Below are positions 1,716 to 24,313 of a stretch of DNA of 33,077 nt, one piece after another (the stretch's first letter is position 1; the number at the start of each line of letters is the position of its first letter). The DNA is taken from positions 1 to 33,077 of the forward strand of contig JAJDAE010000272.1 of NCBI GenBank assembly GCA_029262035.1, written 5' to 3'. The notes under the pieces were generated by a model. The model did no database searches. It saw nothing but the letters and a program-made list of their open reading frames with translations, and had not been told where the DNA came from. The DNA is from Candidatus Zhuqueibacterota bacterium. Lineage in GTDB: Bacteria; Zhuqueibacterota; Zhuqueibacteria; Oceanimicrobiales; Oceanimicrobiaceae. A program made the position numbers and the translations under genes.

Positions 1716-3236
1716 TTGAATTTAACTTTTGGCAAAAAAGAATCTATCGCACTGCAATTGACCATTTCCGGAGCTGAAAGTCTTTTCTCTATGCTACGGA
1801 ATGGAATTCGGGAAACCACAGCTGATAGTTTGTGTGTTGGAACCTTTTACTTTCAATCAGACACGCTTTGGGTTTCATCCAGACAACGGCTTTCTGAGCA
1901 ATTGCTAAAGGCTGTTGAGGCAAAGGTCCAATTTGAATTAAAAAAAAATAAACAGGTTCTTGCGCCGGGTGAATTGCAAATAAGACTGAATGATAAGATA
2001 AAGGAAAAAAATAAACTCAAGTCGAAAGAGGTTTCTTTTTTTCAAGAAAAAATCTTTCCCATTTCTGTTGAAAACAATAAGATTGGATTGGTTTATCTGG
2101 GCTCTCTAAGTGCCGAAATAGATCTGAATGATAAACGATTTACCAATTTATTCAAAAAAGATTTTTTCAAAATTTTAAACAGCTTAAGTGAAGCAAATCA
2201 AAAAGAAAAGAATAAATTTGAGGCGCTTTCCACTTCTGTTATAGATGGCATTATTCTATGCGATTCAGATATGAAAATCCGGTTTATAAATAATGCTGCT
2301 TTGAGAATACTTGAGATTTCCAGTCACAAAAAATGTCTTGGGGAGCCGTTAAGTTTTCTGAAAGCAAGCTACCTGACAGAATTTCTGGAAGAAGCGCTTA
2401 GCAATGGTTTACATGAAATAAATAAAGTGATTAACTCCCCCGATAAACGTACGAAGCTTATTGGGATACATACCGAATTGATTAAAACCAAGAGCAACGG
2501 CAAAGTTGGGTGGATGATCGCTTTGCGCGATGTGACCATGAATTGGCAAAATGATCAGATGCGTTCGGCACTTAGCATTGCAGGCCATGAAATTAAAACA
2601 CCACTCAGCTCCATGAATGGCGCGATTGAGCTGATGATTGACAGAGATTTAGGCGACCTAAACAGCAAACAAGAACAATGCCTTAGTGTGATTAAAGATG
2701 ATATTACCCGGCTGAACCGTTTGCTGACAGATATTCTGGATCTGTCCCGGTTTGAAGAAGGGGTTAAGTTCATTGATCGTCGAAAAGAGATTGCTCTTAA
2801 TTTTTTATCGAATAAGGTCATTTATTCATTTCAGGCTTTTGCTAAAACCAAGAATATCAAAATCATAAATAAAGTGGCGAAGTCCATCCCTACATTTCGG
2901 GGCGACCGTGATCGTTTGCAGCAGGTTATGGCCAATCTGATTGAAAACAGCATTAAATATTCCCTGCCCGATGGCGTGGTAGAGGTTGCGGCAAACTTGC
3001 AGAATTCTATTCTTAATTTCAGCATTAAGGATTCCGGCGTTGGGATACCTGAAAGTGAGAAGGAGGCTGTTTTTGAACGTTTTAAACAATTGGATAATTA
3101 TCCGGATGAAGGCGAACGCGGTTACGGCCTGGGTCTCAGCATCGCCAAGCAAATTGTTGAGGGTGCAGGCGGTAAAATTTGGTTAGAAAGTGAGGTTGAT
3201 GTAGGTACGACTTTTTACTTTACGATTCCGGTATAA
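1716..3236 (+). CDS. soluble PAS-domain sensor histidine kinase
   Basis: This is a 506-residue two-component sensor kinase. The N-terminal region (about 1-160) is soluble and GAF-like in pattern but not assigned. A PAS domain follows (about 165-275, SVIDGIILCDSDMKIRFINNAAL). Next comes a HisKA domain with phospho-acceptor H291 in GHEIKTPLSS. The HATPase_c domain has its N box near 400-412 (ANLIENSIKYS), a DSGVGIP loop and GYGLGLSIAKQI near 469-480. No transmembrane segment is visible, so it senses an internal signal or is recruited to membrane partners. The start is taken as TTG at 1716, because an ATG at 1701 is out of frame. It overlaps the next gene by one base, indicating a coupled pair. 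A PilS-like role is inferred from context only. Confidence 0.9.
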   Translation: MNLTFGKKESIALQLTISGAESLFSMLRNGIRETTADSLCVGTFYFQSDTLWVSSRQRLSEQLLKAVEAKVQFELKKNKQVLAPGELQIRLNDKIKEKNKLKSKEVSFFQEKIFPISVENNKIGLVYLGSLSAEIDLNDKRFTNLFKKDFFKILNSLSEANQKEKNKFEALSTSVIDGIILCDSDMKIRFINNAALRILEISSHKKCLGEPLSFLKASYLTEFLEEALSNGLHEINKVINSPDKRTKLIGIHTELIKTKSNGKVGWMIALRDVTMNWQNDQMRSALSIAGHEIKTPLSSMNGAIELMIDRDLGDLNSKQEQCLSVIKDDITRLNRLLTDILDLSRFEEGVKFIDRRKEIALNFLSNKVIYSFQAFAKTKNIKIINKVAKSIPTFRGDRDRLQQVMANLIENSIKYSLPDGVVEVAANLQNSILNFSIKDSGVGIPESEKEAVFERFKQLDNYPDEGERGYGLGLSIAKQIVEGAGGKIWLESEVDVGTTFYFTIPV

Positions 3237-3613
3237 TGGCCAAGAAAATCCTAATTGTTGAAGACTATGTGAATATCGTTGAAATTCTTAAAATGCGTCT
3301 CGAAAGCATGGGGTTTGATGTTGTTTGTGCTACAGATGGCCAGTCGGGACTTACCCTTGCGCGTAAGGAAATGCCGGACCTTATAATTTTGGATGTTTTG
3401 CTGCCCAAAATGAATGGTTATAAAGTGTGTCGACTGCTCAAGTTTGATGTAAAATATAAGAGCATACCAATTATCATGCTCACATCACGGGAGACCAAAA
3501 GGCATGAGCAGCTTGGCCTCGAAACCGGTGCCGATGCTTACGTTTTTAAGTCGGATCAAACCGGAGCTTTGCTGAAGCTTATCAATAAATATTTAAAACC
3601 TGTGGTCAGTTAG
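3236..3613 (+). CDS. single-domain response regulator (CheY-like receiver)
   Basis: This 125-residue receiver domain has no output domain. The acidic pocket (E9, D10) and phospho-acceptor D53 (LIILDVLLPKMNG) are present, with MLTS for the conserved Thr/Ser. The conserved Lys appears in YVFKSD rather than the usual K-P. Its ATG shares one base with the stop codon of the histidine kinase gene, so the two are probably translationally coupled cognate partners. Without a DNA-binding output it may act by protein contact (for example on the pilus motor) or as a phosphorelay intermediate; both are inference. Confidence 0.93.
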   Translation: MAKKILIVEDYVNIVEILKMRLESMGFDVVCATDGQSGLTLARKEMPDLIILDVLLPKMNGYKVCRLLKFDVKYKSIPIIMLTSRETKRHEQLGLETGADAYVFKSDQTGALLKLINKYLKPVVS

Positions 3614-3843: not shown

Positions 3844-5547
3844 TTGATATCGACAGAAGACAGAAAATTTGGCAAGCTTTTAGTTGATAGGGAAATCGTA
3901 AGTCCTGCCCAGTTAGTTGAAATTTTCAAACAAAAAAAACATCAGGAAGATGAACTTGCTTCAATTTTAATCAACAAAGGTATTGCCGATAGCAAAGACG
4001 TTTATACCTGCCTTGCCGAACATTTAAATATTCCCTTTATCGAATTACAAGATTATACCATTGATGCCTCAGTCGTCACCCTTGTTCCTCATGAATTAGC
4101 TCTAAAACATAAAGTGATGCCTGTTTTTAAGATTGAAAACAGCCTCACTATTACCATGATAAATCCAGGCGATGTCCATGTTATTGATATTCTGCATCGG
4201 GAAACGGGATTTGATATAGAGCCTGCTGTAAGCCTGGAGGAGCAAATTGTTAAAGCCATTGACACGCATTATGGCACCTGCGGCGTTAATCTGGATTCTT
4301 CGTTTGACGAGGTTATTCAGAATATTGAAAGTCAAAAACCCAAAAAGGATGAAAAAACTTCATCCGAGAAACTCAAGCAACTCAGTGCAGAAACTCCAGT
4401 TGTAAAGCTCGTCGACTTGTTCATTGCGCAGGCAATTATGGATGGCGCAAGTGATATACACATTGAACCTGAAGAAAAAAGTCTGCAAGTACGTTTTCGG
4501 GTTGATGGCATTTTGCGTGAAAATTTGAACCCTCCCAAACATTTGCAAGCTGCAATTATTTCAAGAATTAAAATTTTGTCGGAGATGGATATTGCTGAGA
4601 GCCGCATTCCCCAGGACGGACGTTTCCAGGTTACAATAAGCGGCCGCGAAATTGATTTGCGCGTTTCAACCTTGCCAACAGTTTACGGGGAAAATGTCGT
4701 CATGCGTATTCTCGATAAAGCTGCATTAATGTTGGACCTCAATGTCCTCGACTTTGAACCGAGTGTTTTTGAACAATTTCAGGAGATGCTCTCCAGCTCT
4801 TATGGCGTAATATTAGTGTGTGGACCAACAGGTAGCGGAAAAACCACGACGCTTTATTCGGCTCTCAACTCCATCAATGTACCGGAGAAAAAAATTGTTA
4901 CAATCGAAGATCCGGTTGAATATCGTTTAAGTCGAATCAGGCAATGCCAGGTGAATGTAAAGGCAGGTTTGACCTTTGCGGCGGGTCTCAGATCCATTTT
5001 ACGCCAGGATCCCGATATAATTATGCTGGGTGAAATACGTGATAAAGAAACCGCTAAAATCGCTGTAGAATCCGCCCTGACCGGGCATTTGGTGCTATCA
5101 ACCATCCACACAAATGATGCGCCGGGCGGCATAACCCGTTTGACCGAAATGGGAATTGAACCGTTTTTGACTGCCTCTGCCACAGTGGGTGTAATGGCAC
5201 AACGCCTGGTTCGCCGGCTCTGTGGAGAGTGCCGGGAGAAATATACACCACCGTTCACAGTGTTGAAAAATATTGGATACTCTGAAAATGATAAACCTGA
5301 GTTTTACCGGGCTACAGGGTGTTTTCACTGTAAAAATTCCGGCTATAAAGGCCGGCTCGGTATTTACGAAATCATGTTGGTCAATGAAGATATTCGGGAA
5401 TTAATTCTAAAACGAGACTCAACTGCAAAAGTAAAAAAACGTGCTTGTGAAACAGGAATGAAGACCTTACGCCAGGATGCCTTGCGACGTGCACGAAAGG
5501 GTCAAACCTCCCTGGAGGAGGTCTTTCGGGTAACGAATCCCGATTGA
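3844..5547 (+). CDS. pilB: type IV pilus / type II secretion assembly ATPase (PilB/GspE)
   Basis: This 567-residue hexameric AAA-like secretion ATPase powers pilin or pseudopilin polymerisation from the cytoplasmic face of the inner membrane. An N-terminal MshEN/T2SSE_N-like domain (about 1-150, KFGKLLVDREIVSPAQL) precedes the ATPase domain. Visible there are Walker A GPTGSGKTTT (327-336), the acidic EDPVEYRL region, Walker B DIIMLGEIRD (from about 391) and the TGHLVLSTIHTNDA segment. A tetracysteine zinc site follows (C460, C463, C493, C496). The start is TTG at 3844, because an in-frame TGA lies at 3835-3837 and the ATG at 3834 is in another frame. The Shine-Dalgarno sequence is weak. The locus does not decide between PilB and GspE; no pilT-like retraction ATPase lies in the window. 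Confidence 0.95.
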   Translation: MISTEDRKFGKLLVDREIVSPAQLVEIFKQKKHQEDELASILINKGIADSKDVYTCLAEHLNIPFIELQDYTIDASVVTLVPHELALKHKVMPVFKIENSLTITMINPGDVHVIDILHRETGFDIEPAVSLEEQIVKAIDTHYGTCGVNLDSSFDEVIQNIESQKPKKDEKTSSEKLKQLSAETPVVKLVDLFIAQAIMDGASDIHIEPEEKSLQVRFRVDGILRENLNPPKHLQAAIISRIKILSEMDIAESRIPQDGRFQVTISGREIDLRVSTLPTVYGENVVMRILDKAALMLDLNVLDFEPSVFEQFQEMLSSSYGVILVCGPTGSGKTTTLYSALNSINVPEKKIVTIEDPVEYRLSRIRQCQVNVKAGLTFAAGLRSILRQDPDIIMLGEIRDKETAKIAVESALTGHLVLSTIHTNDAPGGITRLTEMGIEPFLTASATVGVMAQRLVRRLCGECREKYTPPFTVLKNIGYSENDKPEFYRATGCFHCKNSGYKGRLGIYEIMLVNEDIRELILKRDSTAKVKKRACETGMKTLRQDALRRARKGQTSLEEVFRVTNPD

Positions 5548-5735
5548 AGTTCCTAAAATCAATTCTTTCAAATTCAAAATCTCTTCGTGTTAAGCTTAAA
5601 CTACCAATAAATCCGTTCTGTTTCGATTGTTTGAATCGGGAATTAAATAAATTAAGATTTTGACTCAAAAAAAGTTAAAGAGCGGACGATAACCCATATA
5701 GCGGATGAAACATGTCAAGATAAAGGATTATGATT

Positions 5736-7136
5736 ATGCTGGCAAAAAAGCCCTCAATAATTGCAGTGGATGATGAAAACGATTTTTTGCAAACTGCAAA
5801 TGAGATATTGAAGAGATTAGATTATAATGTTTTCACCTCTTCCTCGGGTTATGAAGCATTACAGGTTTTAAGTATTCAGAATTTCGATTTGGTTATCCTT
5901 GACCTCAACATGCCATTAATAAGTGGCATTGATACACTGAAGCGCATTCAAAGAATTGACCCGGGCTTGCCGATAATTATTCTTACCGCAGATAGCCGCG
6001 TAGGTACTGTTGTTGAGGCCATGAAGCTTGGCGCTTACGATTTTTTTTCAAAACCAATTGATTGGGGTAAACTTGAGATAGCCATTAAAAACGCTTTGGT
6101 TACACGGGAGTTGCGTTCTGAAGTCAACCGGCTGCAGGGACAGCTAAAAGGTAAAACCGGCTTCGAACAAATAGTTGGTAAAAGCGCCCGGATGATGGAA
6201 GTTTTTAAAGCCATGGAAAGAGTAGCTGACTCTGATGTGACCGTCTCAATTCGTGGTGAGAGTGGCACCGGAAAAGAGTTGCTTGCCCGCGCAATCCATT
6301 TTGATAGCGACCGCAAGAACAAGCCTTTCGTAGCAGTGAACTGTGCCGCGATTCCGGAAAATCTACTTGAGAGCGAACTTTTTGGTCATGAAAAGGGCGC
6401 TTTTACCGGTGCGCACTTACGACGTATTGGCAAGTTTGAGCAAGCCGATGGTGGCTCACTTTTTCTTGATGAGATTGGTGACATGCCTCTGTCTACACAG
6501 GTGAAAATTCTACGTGTTTTACAAGAACGGCAGTTTCATCGTGTAGGCGGTGTTGAAACCGTAAAGGTAGATGTTCGTTTGATTTCGGCCACCAATAAAA
6601 AGTTGGAAGAAGAAATGAAGAAGGGAACCTTCAGAGAAGATCTTTACTACAGGATTTCGGTTTATCCGATTCAGGTCCCGCCTTTACGAGATCGTAAAGA
6701 TGATATTCCCTTTCTATCTGCATTCTTCATGAATAAATTCAATAAGGAGTATCGCCGCAAAATAAAAGCGATTTTACCACAAACCATGAATTATTTGCTC
6801 AATTACGATTGGCCGGGCAATGTTCGTGAACTTGAAAATGTGCTGGAGCGGTCATTTTTAAATACTTCTGAAGGTGTTTTAACGCCGGAACATTTGCCAA
6901 TCACCCTCACTTCGTATAAGGAAGATTTCAACAACAGTGATACTTTTATTGATCTTAAAAAAGTTGTTACACTCACCAATACGATTACACCGCTAAAAGA
7001 GCTTGAAAAGGAAATTTTGCAGCAGGCGCTGCGTTTGACCAATTACAATATGTCAAATGCTGCATTGGAGCTTGGTATCGGCAGAACGACGCTTTACCGT
7101 AAATTACAAAAGTACCGTATTACTCTCCGCAGATAA
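5736..7136 (+). CDS. NtrC-family sigma-54-dependent response regulator
   Basis: This 466-residue enhancer-binding protein has a receiver domain with phospho-acceptor D56 (VILDLNMP). The central sigma-54 activation AAA+ domain carries Walker A GESGTGKE (174-181) and the sigma-54 contact loop GAFTGA (221-226), plus LFLDEIGDMPL. A C-terminal Fis-type HTH follows (about 435-462, MSNAALELGIGRTTLYRKL). It should open -24/-12 promoters from upstream dyad sites. Exactly such an arrangement occurs 1.5 kb downstream before the major pilin, making this a probable PilR-like activator. ATG 5736 is preferred because AAAGGA at 5722-5727 gives about 8-nt spacing; the in-frame ATG at 5730 is too close. No kinase is adjacent; the PAS kinase upstream is the local candidate. 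Confidence 0.93.
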   Translation: MLAKKPSIIAVDDENDFLQTANEILKRLDYNVFTSSSGYEALQVLSIQNFDLVILDLNMPLISGIDTLKRIQRIDPGLPIIILTADSRVGTVVEAMKLGAYDFFSKPIDWGKLEIAIKNALVTRELRSEVNRLQGQLKGKTGFEQIVGKSARMMEVFKAMERVADSDVTVSIRGESGTGKELLARAIHFDSDRKNKPFVAVNCAAIPENLLESELFGHEKGAFTGAHLRRIGKFEQADGGSLFLDEIGDMPLSTQVKILRVLQERQFHRVGGVETVKVDVRLISATNKKLEEEMKKGTFREDLYYRISVYPIQVPPLRDRKDDIPFLSAFFMNKFNKEYRRKIKAILPQTMNYLLNYDWPGNVRELENVLERSFLNTSEGVLTPEHLPITLTSYKEDFNNSDTFIDLKKVVTLTNTITPLKELEKEILQQALRLTNYNMSNAALELGIGRTTLYRKLQKYRITLRR

Positions 7137-7215: not shown

Positions 7216-8424
7216 ATGCCTGTTTTTAGCTATAAGGCCATCAGCGACGACGGTGAAGAAATCACCGATGTTATGGAGGCAGATGACGAGACTATCGTTG
7301 CAGAACGGCTTGACAAGCTGGGTTACTTACCTGTCAAAATCAATAAAAAATCCAAAGTTGGCGAAATACAGCTTTTTTCAAAAAAGAAAAAAATAAAAGA
7401 AGGTGAAATTATTCACTTCACCAAGCAGCTTGTTACCTTGCTTAAAGCTGGCGTACCATTGCTTGGCTGCCTGGAGGCAATGGTGGAGCAAAGCACAAAT
7501 GAAGATATGAAGGATGTTATTCAGGGCATTTATGTGGACATTGAGAGTGGATTAAGTTTTTCTGATGCACTGCAAAATAATCCCGACGTATTTTCAGAGT
7601 TGTACATTTGCAGCATAAGAGCCGGAGAGATTGGCGGCGCGTTGGATAATGTTATGAATCGCCTTTCCGTTTTAATGGAAAAGGATGCCGAAATTAGAGC
7701 GAGGATAAAGGCCGCAACAAGATATCCAATAATTGTGGTTGTTTCACTCGTGCTTGCATTTGTTGCTCTAATGTTGCTGGTTGTGCCGAACTTTATTGAG
7801 TTGTTCAGTCAGTTCAATTTAGAGTTGCCAATTGCCACCCGTTTGTTAATTGGCATGTACAACGGGTTAACCAACTATTGGTATCTTATGCTGGGACTCT
7901 TGGGTGCCGCATTTTTCGGTTTTAAGAAATATATTAAAACCGAAAATGGAGCCTTACGTTGGGATAATTTTAAACTCCGAACCCCTGTTTTTGGCGATCT
8001 AAATTTAAAAACCGCCATGTCGAGATTTACCCGTATGTTCGAAACGTTGAACAGCAGCGGGTTGCCGATTTTACAAACTCTTGAAATTACCTCTAAAACA
8101 GTTGGGAATTTAATTGTCGGCAAAGAGATCGACAAAATATCTGTCGGTGTTTTGCAGGGTGAGGGAATTGCAGTTCCATTAACCAAAGGCAATATATTCC
8201 CACCGATGGTGGTTCAAATGATTGCCATCGGAGAAAAATCCGGTTCGCTTGATGAAATGCTGTTGAATATTTCCGATCATTACGATACGGAAGTTGAGTA
8301 CGCCGTTAAAAATATGACTTCCATGATTGAGCCGGTTCTCACAGTTGCTGTTGGCGGTATTGTGTTGTTTTTGGCAATTGCAATTTTCCTGCCCATGTGG
8401 GATTTAACCAAGATTGCCCAGTGA
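7216..8424 (+). CDS. pilC: type IV pilus / type II secretion platform protein (PilC/GspF)
   Basis: This 402-residue inner-membrane platform protein couples the PilB ATPase to the growing pilus or pseudopilus. It begins with the typical MPVFSYKAISDDGE strand. Two homologous T2SSF domains follow (about 68-190 and 270-392), each with the helical bundle pattern (FTKQLVTLLKAGVPLLGCLEAM; FTRMFETLNSSGLPILQTLEI). The membrane segments include VVSLVLAFVALMLLVVPNF and the C-terminal VLTVAVGGIVLFLAIAIFLPMW. The ATG at 7216 is the family-typical start. It lies 79 bp after the sigma-54 regulator, and the first predicted activator site begins 1 bp after its stop codon. Confidence 0.95.
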   Translation: MPVFSYKAISDDGEEITDVMEADDETIVAERLDKLGYLPVKINKKSKVGEIQLFSKKKKIKEGEIIHFTKQLVTLLKAGVPLLGCLEAMVEQSTNEDMKDVIQGIYVDIESGLSFSDALQNNPDVFSELYICSIRAGEIGGALDNVMNRLSVLMEKDAEIRARIKAATRYPIIVVVSLVLAFVALMLLVVPNFIELFSQFNLELPIATRLLIGMYNGLTNYWYLMLGLLGAAFFGFKKYIKTENGALRWDNFKLRTPVFGDLNLKTAMSRFTRMFETLNSSGLPILQTLEITSKTVGNLIVGKEIDKISVGVLQGEGIAVPLTKGNIFPPMVVQMIAIGEKSGSLDEMLLNISDHYDTEVEYAVKNMTSMIEPVLTVAVGGIVLFLAIAIFLPMWDLTKIAQ

Positions 8425-8425
8425 C

Positions 8426-8440
8426 TTCCATTTTGGAACA
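8426..8440. promoter_or_regulatory. predicted activator-binding dyad 1 (UAS)
   Basis: TTCC-N5-GGAACA is one of three copies of TYCC-N5-GGRACA between the pilC stop codon and the pilin promoter. The centre is about 242 bp upstream of the -24 element at 8675. NtrC-type activators bind such dyads at comparable distances. Assignment to the regulator at 5736 is inferred. Confidence 0.5.
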
Positions 8441-8478
8441 CCTGTCCCCCTTTCAATTTCCTATCTAAAAAAGCATGA

Positions 8479-8493
8479 TCCCGAATTGGGACA
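8479..8493. promoter_or_regulatory. predicted activator-binding dyad 2 (UAS)
   Basis: TCCC-N5-GGGACA. Both half-sites change together relative to copies 1 and 3 (TTCC/GGAA to TCCC/GGGA), so the symmetry is preserved. That is stronger evidence for a dimer-binding site than simple similarity would be. A degenerate fourth copy (TTTC-AAATT-GACA) follows at 8497-8509. Confidence 0.55.
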
Positions 8494-8569
8494 TTGTTTC
8501 AAATTGACAGTCTGCTTTATAAAAATCAATAGTTTAACTCAGTTTTATAGGAATACCGGTTTGGTTGTT

Positions 8570-8584
8570 TTCCAAATTGGAACA
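8570..8584. promoter_or_regulatory. predicted activator-binding dyad 3 (UAS)
   Basis: TTCC-AAATT-GGAACA is the most symmetrical copy; the core TTCCAAATTGGAA is a near-complete palindrome. Its centre is about 100 bp upstream of the -24 element, within the usual range for DNA-looping enhancer sites. Confidence 0.55.
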
Positions 8585-8673
8585 TTTTTGAGAGAAATTG
8601 TTGCTAAAATATAATTAATCTTTTATGGGGCTAAGTCGATGTAAAATAAGAGTTAATTTCTATAAAAAATTAA

Positions 8674-8688
8674 TGGCATGCAGCTTGC
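8674..8688 (+). promoter_or_regulatory. sigma-54 (-24/-12) promoter of the major pilin gene
   Basis: TGGCATGCAGCTTGC matches the sigma-54 consensus TGGCAC-N5-TTGC at all but one position. The GG and GC pairs have the obligatory 10-bp separation. Transcription should start near 8700, giving an untranslated leader of roughly 60 nt before the pilin ATG at 8759. Three activator-type dyads lie upstream and a sigma-54 activator gene is in the same locus. Confidence 0.8.
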
Positions 8689-8758
8689 TTATAACCAGAA
8701 CAGATTGCGCAGCTGCAAACGTTTATTCAAATTTTTAACAGTTTAAGTGGAGGTTTTA

Positions 8759-9097
8759 ATGAAAGGTCAAAGTGGTTTCACACTCATCGAGCTTATTATG
8801 GTCATTGTAATTATCGGTATTTTGGCAGCTATTGCTGTTCCACAGTTTGTCGATCTCAGTGACACGGCTCAAGCTTCAAATTGTAAATCTAACCAGGCAG
8901 CAGTAGAAGCAGCTGTTTCTATTACTTATGCTCAGAATGCCGCAGCAGGCAGCGCTACTTTTCCAACTGCTTTGGCGGATAGTATGTTTAAGAGCGTAAT
9001 TCCTGTCTGCCCTGCTACCAGTGGCAATATTGCATACGATAACTCGGACGGAACGGCTTCATGCCCAACCAGTATTGCAGCTCATGCAAGATTCTAA
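8759..9097 (+). CDS. major type IV pilin / GspG-like pilin
   Basis: This is a 112-residue pilin with a short six-residue leader (MKGQSG) cut before F7, followed by FTLIEL with E11 as the conserved Glu+5. The hydrophobic assembly helix (IMVIVIIGILAAIAVPQFVDL) comes next. The C-terminal part has C84 and C102 spaced as the disulfide loop common in short pilins (CPATSGNIAYDNSDGTASC); a third Cys is at 42. ATG 8759 is chosen because GGAGG lies at 8749-8753 and the leader is then canonical; an in-frame GTG at 8747 overlaps that ribosome-binding site. It has its own sigma-54 promoter and its own terminator, as expected for the abundant major subunit. Confidence 0.92.
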   Translation: MKGQSGFTLIELIMVIVIIGILAAIAVPQFVDLSDTAQASNCKSNQAAVEAAVSITYAQNAAAGSATFPTALADSMFKSVIPVCPATSGNIAYDNSDGTASCPTSIAAHARF

Positions 9098-22986: not shown

Positions 22987-23379
22987 ATGAAGAATCAGGC
23001 ATTCCATGCAATAGGCAGAAGAAAAGAAGCCGTAGCCAGGGTTAGAATGATCCCGGGGGATGGAAAATTTATTGTAAATAAAAAGCCTTTGCTCGATTTT
23101 TTCAAGCGTGAGATTTTACAGATGATAATTGAGCAGCCTTTGAATCTTACGGAAACATTAGGGAAATATGATATTCACGTTAATGTTAATGGCGGCGGTT
23201 TATCTGGCCAGGCGGGCGCGGTACGTTTGGGTGTTTCGAGAACGCTTCTAAAAATCGACGAAGAATTTCGCCCAAAGCTTAAAGCTGCAGGACTGCTGAC
23301 ACGTGATCCTCGCATGGTTGAGAGGAAAAAATACGGACAACCTGGAGCTCGTAAAAGATTTCAATTTTCAAAACGTTAA
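22987..23379 (+). CDS. rpsI: small-subunit ribosomal protein S9 (uS9)
   Basis: This 130-residue protein is the usual partner of L13. It shows [15 protein letters not shown] at the N-terminus, [18 protein letters not shown] centrally and the invariant basic tail [11 protein letters not shown], whose terminal Lys-Arg reaches the ribosomal P-site region. ATG 22987 is preferred over an in-frame TTG at 22984 because AGAGG at 22976-22980 gives 6-nt spacing. It is followed by a 94-bp structured gap before rpsB. Confidence 0.97.
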
Positions 23380-23400
23380 TTTTTATTTACTAAATACGCA

Positions 23401-23449
23401 CACTAGTCCGTTTGGGTGCCTTTAGCAAAAAGGTGATTTGAGACTAGTG
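23401..23449 (+). promoter_or_regulatory. candidate structured mRNA leader of rpsB
   Basis: CACTAGTC (23401-23408) pairs perfectly with GACTAGTG (23442-23449), enclosing a second short stem CCTTT / AAAGG. It is followed by two GGAGGTTT copies, of which the second (23465-23471) serves rpsB. Several bacterial phyla have S2-binding autoregulatory leaders upstream of rpsB; identity to a known family cannot be judged here. No U-tract follows, so termination is unlikely. Confidence 0.45.
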
Positions 23450-23473
23450 GAGGTTTAACCCAATGGAGGTTTT

Positions 23474-24313
23474 ATGAATGTATCCCTGCAAGACCTGTTG
23501 ATAGCAGGTTCCCATTTCGGCCATCTTACCCGAAGATGGAATCCAAAAATGAAAAAATATATTTTTATGGAGCGAAATGGTATTTATGTAATCGATCTAA
23601 AAAAGTCTCTTGCTGCTTTAACTGCGGCCTGTGAGGAAATAGTAAACATAACACGTTCCGGTGGGAAAATTCTTTTCGTGGGAACAAAAAAACAGGCTAA
23701 AGACATTATAAAAAGTGAAGCTGAAAGAAGTGATTCATTTTTTATTAATGAACGTTGGTTAGGTGGTACACTTACCAATTTTACAACCATCAAAAAAAGT
23801 ATTCGTCGCCTTAAGCACATAGAGAAGATGGCTACAGATGGTACCTATGATAAACTGCTCAAAAAAGAAATTTTAAGAATGGAGCGCGAAAGAGAAAAAT
23901 TAGAGATGGTACTTGGTGGTGTTCGAGATATGAATACTTTGCCAGGTGCGATTTTTATTGTTGATACAAAAAAGGAAAGTATTGCAGTTCTTGAAGCCCG
24001 GAAACTGAATATTCCTCTTTTTGCTATAGTTGATACAAATTGTGACCCGGATGTTATTGATTATCCGATTCCGGCCAACGACGATGCTTTCAAATCGATT
24101 AATTTGATAACTCATGCTATCGCTGATGCTGCTATTGAGGGAATGAGTGTTGCAAAAGCGCATTCAGAAAAAGAGGGTGATGCTGCTCAAGTTGCTCAGC
24201 AACGGAAAGAAACCAAGGATGAAGTAATCGTAAGTGACAATGTGGATGAAATGAAAGCTGTTGCGGACTTGGTCATCAAGGAAGAAGAGCCGGCAGAAGA
24301 GAAAAAAGAATAA
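23474..24313 (+). CDS. rpsB: small-subunit ribosomal protein S2 (uS2)
   Basis: This 279-residue 30S protein has diagnostic segments [46 protein letters not shown] and [21 protein letters not shown]. The C-terminus carries an acidic, Glu/Lys-rich extension (about 230-279) beyond the core fold, making it longer than the roughly 240-residue E. coli protein; such tails are common in the FCB group. GGAGG at 23465-23469 precedes ATG 23474. The TTATGA junction also ends a four-codon ORF starting at 23463, which is probably incidental. It is followed 36 bp later by tsf, the universal partner. Confidence 0.97.

Follow-up and report, generated by a model that had tools for sequence, protein, structure and literature searches.

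A conserved, PilR-like sigma-54 control region predicted upstream of the major pilin gene in Candidatus Zhuqueibacterota

The closest described systems are those in which PilR/PilS and sigma-54 control pilA in Pseudomonas aeruginosa, Geobacter and Myxococcus and which, in the portions of the literature available, comprise an NtrC-type regulator, a sigma-54 promoter of the major pilin gene and upstream sites. In Geobacter pilR is reported to lie next to pilA (PMC2725144, available in part), and the accessible text on P. aeruginosa gives a “NifA-like TGTN11AGA” as hallmark of the PilR site and six membrane segments for PilS (PMC6058289). Three further systems are relevant as far as the excerpts of their reports describe them. 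Control of pilE by Npa/Nps in commensal Neisseria likewise involves sigma-54, an NtrC-type activator, an upstream activator sequence and an IHF-dependent pilin transcription, with IHF located between activator site and promoter (PMC6528607). NmpR from Myxococcus xanthus is NtrC-like and has paired N5-spaced dyads (GCGCA-N5-TGCGC) upstream of sigma-54 promoters (PMC11841059). DVU2114 from Desulfovibrio vulgaris, which we liken to the present case by its description and not by motif letters, is a sigma-54-dependent response regulator mapped to pilin promoters with a motif conserved in relatives (PMC3333781).

Here, we describe a region that we regard as a real and conserved PilR-like control region, found in a contig of a Candidatus Zhuqueibacterota bacterium (33,077 nucleotides, the whole stretch being called the window). 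Judged from its sequence it would mostly be an expected case of a known type of pilus control with a well supported predicted mechanism, apparently working like PilR control with no evident PilS beside the regulator. In contrast with PilR/PilS the regulator is encoded between pilB and pilC, and the kinase of the cluster is soluble, not located beside the regulator and adjoined by a stand-alone receiver. The operator motif has the same TGT-N11-A frame as the PilR hallmark in the accessible text, whereas the GA of the final AGA is not conserved here (PMC6058289). Two of its sites are 5 nt apart as reported for NmpR at the pilR promoter, but in the excerpted report NmpR differs by another half-site, a gap of 14–15 nt at five of seven promoters and an oxygen-use regulon (PMC11841059). 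The best-conserved IHF-like site is found between an operator doublet and a proximal dyad and not, as described in the available text for Npa/Nps, between activator site and promoter (PMC6528607). The literature on sigma-54 control of pilins in Proteobacteria and relatives, in the portions available, contains no description of such an array of doublet, IHF site and proximal dyad. The findings are of interest since they would extend a PilR-like sigma-54 pilin control and its defined operator consensus to several families within one phylum. Additionally, the geometry of the array lends itself to testing how an AAA+ activator may be assembled by a split enhancer together with a DNA bend, and the array could mark this type of pilin control in genomes from metagenomes.

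The genes concerned are the following:

1716 to 3236, plus strand: soluble PAS histidine kinase, candidate signal source (domain match; maximum 19-residue hydropathy 0.95)
3236 to 3613, plus strand: stand-alone receiver protein of the same cluster (domain match)
3844 to 5547, plus strand: pilB-like ATPase (TIGR02538 with 641 bits, below the cut-off of 675.65)
5730 to 7136, plus strand: NtrC-family regulator, the proposed operator-binding protein (receiver, sigma-54 activator AAA+ domain with GAFTGA, Fis-type HTH)
7216 to 8424, plus strand: pilC, the gene before the control region (T2SSF domain match)
8759 to 9097, plus strand: major pilin gene, type IV (N_methyl PF07963; start codon ATG, preceded by GGAGG)

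The GAFTGA motif of the regulator that the original prediction had placed at 5736 is indeed present in the open reading frame 5730–7136, and the pilin start given as GTG 8747 in the list of reading frames compares with ATG 8759 here. The regulator is flanked by pilB and pilC with no PilS-type multi-membrane kinase beside it, the nearest kinase found being the soluble one. Among the 25 NCBIfam families listed for it (of 117) none reaches its cut-off. A pilT-family gene scoring over the cut-off is found elsewhere in the genome.

A search with the regulator in 99 genomes (its own included) gave some match in 98, of which 20 were taken as orthologue-bearing at a cut set by us (E 5.4e-162 or better, 54–100% identity; the next best match has 1.2e-149). 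The orthologue occurs together with pilC in 19/19 relatives, as the immediately preceding gene in 16; in G019, G014 and G009 the two are separated by about 5 kb of genes within the pil cluster, some of which look CheR/CheB/CheY-like by eye. The pilin follows pilC in 15 of the 19; two further loci (G001, G042) reach the contig end, and in G074 and G076, with both regulator and pilC, the stretch read after pilC contains neither a pilin nor such a promoter. All eight upstream stretches that were read contain pilD, the kinase and the REC receiver in this order. In seven of them pilB comes next; G003 has it on the neighbouring stretch. Between pilB and regulator, G070, G068 and G012 have one more receiver and one more pilB-like gene. 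A wider scan of contigs with the regulator gave four loci, the two best of them without pil genes beside it.

The elements between pilC and the pilin gene are:

8426 to 8440, plus strand: putative distal operator dyad TTCCATTTTGGAACA (21.2 bits; core centred at 8432, which is 242 bp upstream of the -24 element)
8479 to 8493, plus strand: putative operator dyad TCCCGAATTGGGACA, first of the two doublet sites (15.4 bits; centred at 8485)
8495 to 8509, minus strand: putative reverse-oriented operator TGTTTCAAATTGACA, second of the two doublet sites (16.8 bits; centred at 8503, at a distance of 18 bp from 8485)
8524 to 8536, plus strand: perfect match to the IHF consensus, AATCAATAGTTTA (centred 46 bp upstream of the proximal dyad)
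8570 to 8584, plus strand: putative proximal operator dyad TTCCAAATTGGAACA (20.3 bits; centred at 8576, which is 98 bp upstream of the -24 element)
8674 to 8689, plus strand: predicted -24/-12 promoter TGGCATGCAGCTTGCT (near-consensus, standard spacing)

In the promoter the distance from GG to GC is 10 bp within TGGCATGCAGCTTGC (8674–8688), exactly as predicted. In the genome TGGCAYGNNNNTTGCW has five matches compared with none in a backwards-read control, and the strict pattern TGGCAYN5TTGCW 31 compared with one. Among 20 parsed loci all 16 complete pilC–pilin gaps keep TGGCAY-N5-TTG 70–119 bp upstream of the pilin match. The genome encodes rpoN (E 2.1e-60), and together with the conserved pilC–pilin gaps this supports the prediction of a sigma-54 promoter with upstream NtrC-type enhancer sites before the pilin gene.

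Three exact copies of TYCCNNNNNGGRACA are found at 8426–8440, 8479–8493 and 8570–8584, in agreement with the dyads TYCC-N5-GGRACA listed before. In the whole genome (5.3 Mb) there are 21 exact matches, three of them in this 160-bp stretch, compared with 24 in the backwards-read control; with three exact dyads within 160 bp the cluster is thus far from chance, though the pattern alone is not enriched. A supposed degenerate copy at 8497 turned out to be a genuine site that is located on the opposite strand (TGTTTCAAATTGACA, 8495–8509) and scores 16.8 bits. The bit scores of the operators are from a matrix built without any site of the genome itself.

This matrix is based on a de novo motif search of 16 of the 20 parsed loci, leaving out G001 and G042, which reach the contig end, and G074 and G076, where pilC is not followed by a pilin. 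An EM search settled on base composition and was abandoned in favour of a Gibbs sampler that took the background from each sequence and allowed two sites per upstream region on either strand. This sampler returned TGT-(T/G)(C/T)C-R-WWWY-GG-N-A with scores of 406–410 (12 starts) compared with 240–253 for ten Markov-resampled sets (two starts each). Since the dyad was recovered de novo, and the promoter in 16/16 gaps, the conservation check proposed earlier came out in favour of the prediction. The consensus itself had to be revised: the symmetric TYCCNNNNNGGRACA is too narrow and wrongly symmetric, the symmetric core TNCC-N5-GRNA carries a conserved ACA/TGT on one side only and the predicted operator consensus is the asymmetric TGT-YCC-N5-GRNA. 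The matrix comprises 26 of the 32 Gibbs sites; those left out are both sites from G000 (the genome studied here), both from G002, a single one from G003 and a duplicate. Three loci with no site in it show three or four sites each (G000 15.4–21.2, G042 16.4–20.7 and G072 17.8–20.3 bits), of which G000 had been part of the Gibbs search and G042 belongs to the same genus as G021, which is in the matrix. Like G042 and G072, G007b and G004 were outside the Gibbs search; G007b has one site of 19.9 bits and G004 one weak site of 12.7 bits. In 132 kb of background no position reaches 16 bits and two reach 14.5 bits. With a best score of 9.8 bits there is no convincing operator in G002, where the promoter is present and the regulator 63% identical. 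At 12.5 bits the 20 loci contain 41 forward sites (one being a coding artefact) and ten reverse ones, an orientation bias that is unexpected given a symmetric dimer. Matches of TGCC[CG]ATGTGGAACA before the pilins of G070, G077, G078, G080 and G081 were rejected, being by eye the C-terminal codons of pilC (P-M-W-N).

The core centres in the window (8432, 8485, 8503 and 8576) are separated by 53, 18 and 73 bp. The original prediction contains neither the 18-bp doublet nor the IHF match. At 9 bits the 18-bp doublet is found in 11 of 20 loci from eight genera, as forward-forward, forward-reverse or reverse-forward pair, while 2000 random placements gave at most four genera at 18 bp and at most five at any distance. 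The interval from doublet to proximal site is 78–83 bp in 12 other loci (two of which, G007 and G019, are without a doublet at 9 bits) and 97–99 bp in G066 and G070; in G009 and G014 a pair is found at 19–20 bp with neither a proximal site nor an IHF-like match. Like the distal dyad 8426–8440, a site 53–54 bp upstream of the doublet occurs in G003 and G005. The IHF consensus used for matching is WATCAANNNNTTR. Ten of 16 loci match it with at most one mismatch at 45–46 bp upstream of the proximal dyad, and the match is perfect in the window, G005 and G042; in 600 shuffles a maximum of two loci shared any place. These 16 of 20 loci (without G002, G007b, G009 and G014) had their proximal dyad chosen by hand, and both the IHF and the 18-bp pattern were first seen and then tested on the same loci. 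The remaining six show two mismatches (G021), three mismatches (G068), a match 6 bp off (G004) or none (G012, G024, G019). As the distance from IHF site to proximal dyad is constant, the shorter interval in the window (73 bp, compared with 83 bp in G003 and G005 from the same family) is due to the part from doublet to IHF site, which measures 27 bp compared with 37 bp, a difference of one helical turn (10 bp). On the opposite strand another IHF-like match, 47–49 bp before the -24 element and with at most one mismatch, is present in six of 20 loci (G004, G007, G007b, G021, G012, G068) and absent from the window. Two HU/IHF-family genes occur in the genome, and their proteins match best to IHF models, below the curated IHF cut-offs.

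Two readings without any protein bound to the dyads have to be weighed against operator function. The dyads could be RNA hairpins, either as terminator of pilC or as a leader structure, since they are inverted repeats, the first one is found just downstream of the pilC stop codon and copy 2 changes symmetrically. This last feature had been taken as covariation of the half-sites, and copy 2 is in fact altered on both sides; among 47 distinct sites from 20 loci, however, positions 2 and 12 are complementary in only 10 compared with 15.3 expected, so that the half-sites vary independently. Because of this lack of covariation the hairpin reading is disfavoured. The ACA conserved on one side, a spacing that holds across orientations, the absence of a long T-run after the dyads (by eye) as in a terminator and of any Rfam match at gathering thresholds in the control region also argue against it, and we consider it very improbable. 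Even less credible is a reading of the gap as plain intergenic sequence in which the dyads arose by chance and the -24/-12 element alone is functional. It would account for the lack of genome-wide enrichment of both the dyad pattern and the refined motif, but conflicts with the de novo recovery in relatives, the matches in loci outside the matrix and the fixed spacing.

If the dyads are operators, the nearby NtrC-type regulator is, on present comparisons, the best candidate for binding them. It is favoured because the dyads co-occur with it, a co-occurrence that is confounded with phylogeny. All 20 orthologues share the HTH sequence (I/M)GRTT(L/F)YRK, and among the 18 orthologue-bearing genomes that have 600 bp of sequence upstream of the best pilin hit, 17 contain the promoter and 16 the motif. 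The motif count leaves out G074 (68 bp upstream), G046 (134 bp) and G001 (no pilin hit), and the loose match in G073 is not included among the promoters; the exceptions are G002 without motif and G076, whose pilin, located elsewhere in the genome, has neither promoter nor motif. Genomes in which no orthologue was found contain nine sigma-54-type pilin promoters, eight of them assessable (G046 has too little sequence). The motif is absent at six (G020, G022, G031, G043, G015 and one locus of G071) and present at two, namely G004 (one 12.7-bit site) and G072; these two contigs start so close to the pilin, at 0.5 and 1.1 kb, that they would not include a linked regulator. Both the association with pilC in 19/19 relatives and the absence at 6/8 promoters thus support the original prediction of this regulator as likely binder. 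Alternatively, promoter and operators may be real with another enhancer-binding protein on the dyads, e.g., the paralogue G000:C49 or one of the other approximately 30. The sigma-54 activator domain has 34 matches in the genome, 31 of them with at least 150 bits, and the recognition helix of the paralogue (GRATIYRK) is close to GRTTLYRK and could bind related sites. Against this, the GRATIYRK-type paralogue occurs in G015 and G020, and dyads are absent from the sigma-54-type pilin promoters of both; moreover, the GRTT-type regulator is constantly paired with pilC in the relatives having it; we regard such a substitution as improbable.

With the nearby regulator as predicted binder, 8426–8689 is probably the region through which sigma-54 controls the major pilin gene, involving an NtrC-type regulator on the dyads, a bend by IHF or HU and looping to the promoter. 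Sigma-54 RNA polymerase would sit at 8674–8689 as closed complex, and the phosphorylated regulator would bind as dimers to the four TGT-YCC-N5-GRNA sites (distal, 18-bp doublet and proximal). An IHF/HU-family protein may bend the DNA at 8524–8536, 46 bp before the proximal site, whereby the distal dimers could join the proximal dimer in an AAA+ assembly that would loop to the promoter and open it, with a transcription start expected near 8700. The soluble PAS kinase (1716–3236) is the presumed signal input. Clearly more tentative is the proposal that across several families of one phylum a fixed-geometry nucleoprotein machine is found, in which the bend within the enhancer joins two half-enhancers and not the enhancer to the promoter, and in which soluble PAS kinase and receiver relay replace PilS. 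A distance from doublet to bend that differs by 10 bp (27 compared with 37) is as phase-dependent assembly would predict.

The original prediction also saw here a PilR-type regulon, and a genome scan supports one further target and no large regulon. None of the 18 other exact TYCCN5GGRACA matches in the genome has a -24/-12-like site 40–320 bp downstream on the strand of the dyad, the single direction scanned, and the refined motif has seven matches compared with 11 in the control. As the dyad is not enriched genome-wide, the regulon looks small. Of the 31 strict promoters 30 were scanned (all except G000:C359), and at three of them the motif reaches 11 bits within 400 bp, i.e., those of the pilin, a 311-aa protein and a YdjM-like protein. 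The gene of the 311-aa secreted protein (G000:C342:7691-8623, without Pfam match) occurs in 8/8 genomes of the family, in four of which (G000, G003, G007, G001) the motif is followed 123–149 bp downstream by a promoter-like element; in G007 and G001 this element, TGGATCGGTAATTGC, was found only with a loose GG-N10-GC pattern. Upstream of the gene neither motif nor promoter is present in G005, G002 and G006, and G004, where part of the upstream sequence is N, shows no motif and a loose GG-N10-GC unlike the consensus.

Some minor observations concern other genes. The -24/-12 element of the YdjM-like membrane protein gene is located at G000:C207:8105-8120, with one putative 16-bit operator approximately 98 bp upstream. 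Strict -24/-12 elements at G000:C2:32484-32499, G000:C2:35553-35568 and G000:C304:527-542 are found 76–94 bp before reading frames that are by eye of the DnaK, DnaJ and Hsp20 type, which suggests a sigma-54 control of chaperones in this genome. Elsewhere in the window, Rfam matches a t44 RNA at 23379–23459 on the plus strand (44.2 compared with a gathering score of 44), before the reading frame at 23474 that reads as ribosomal protein S2.
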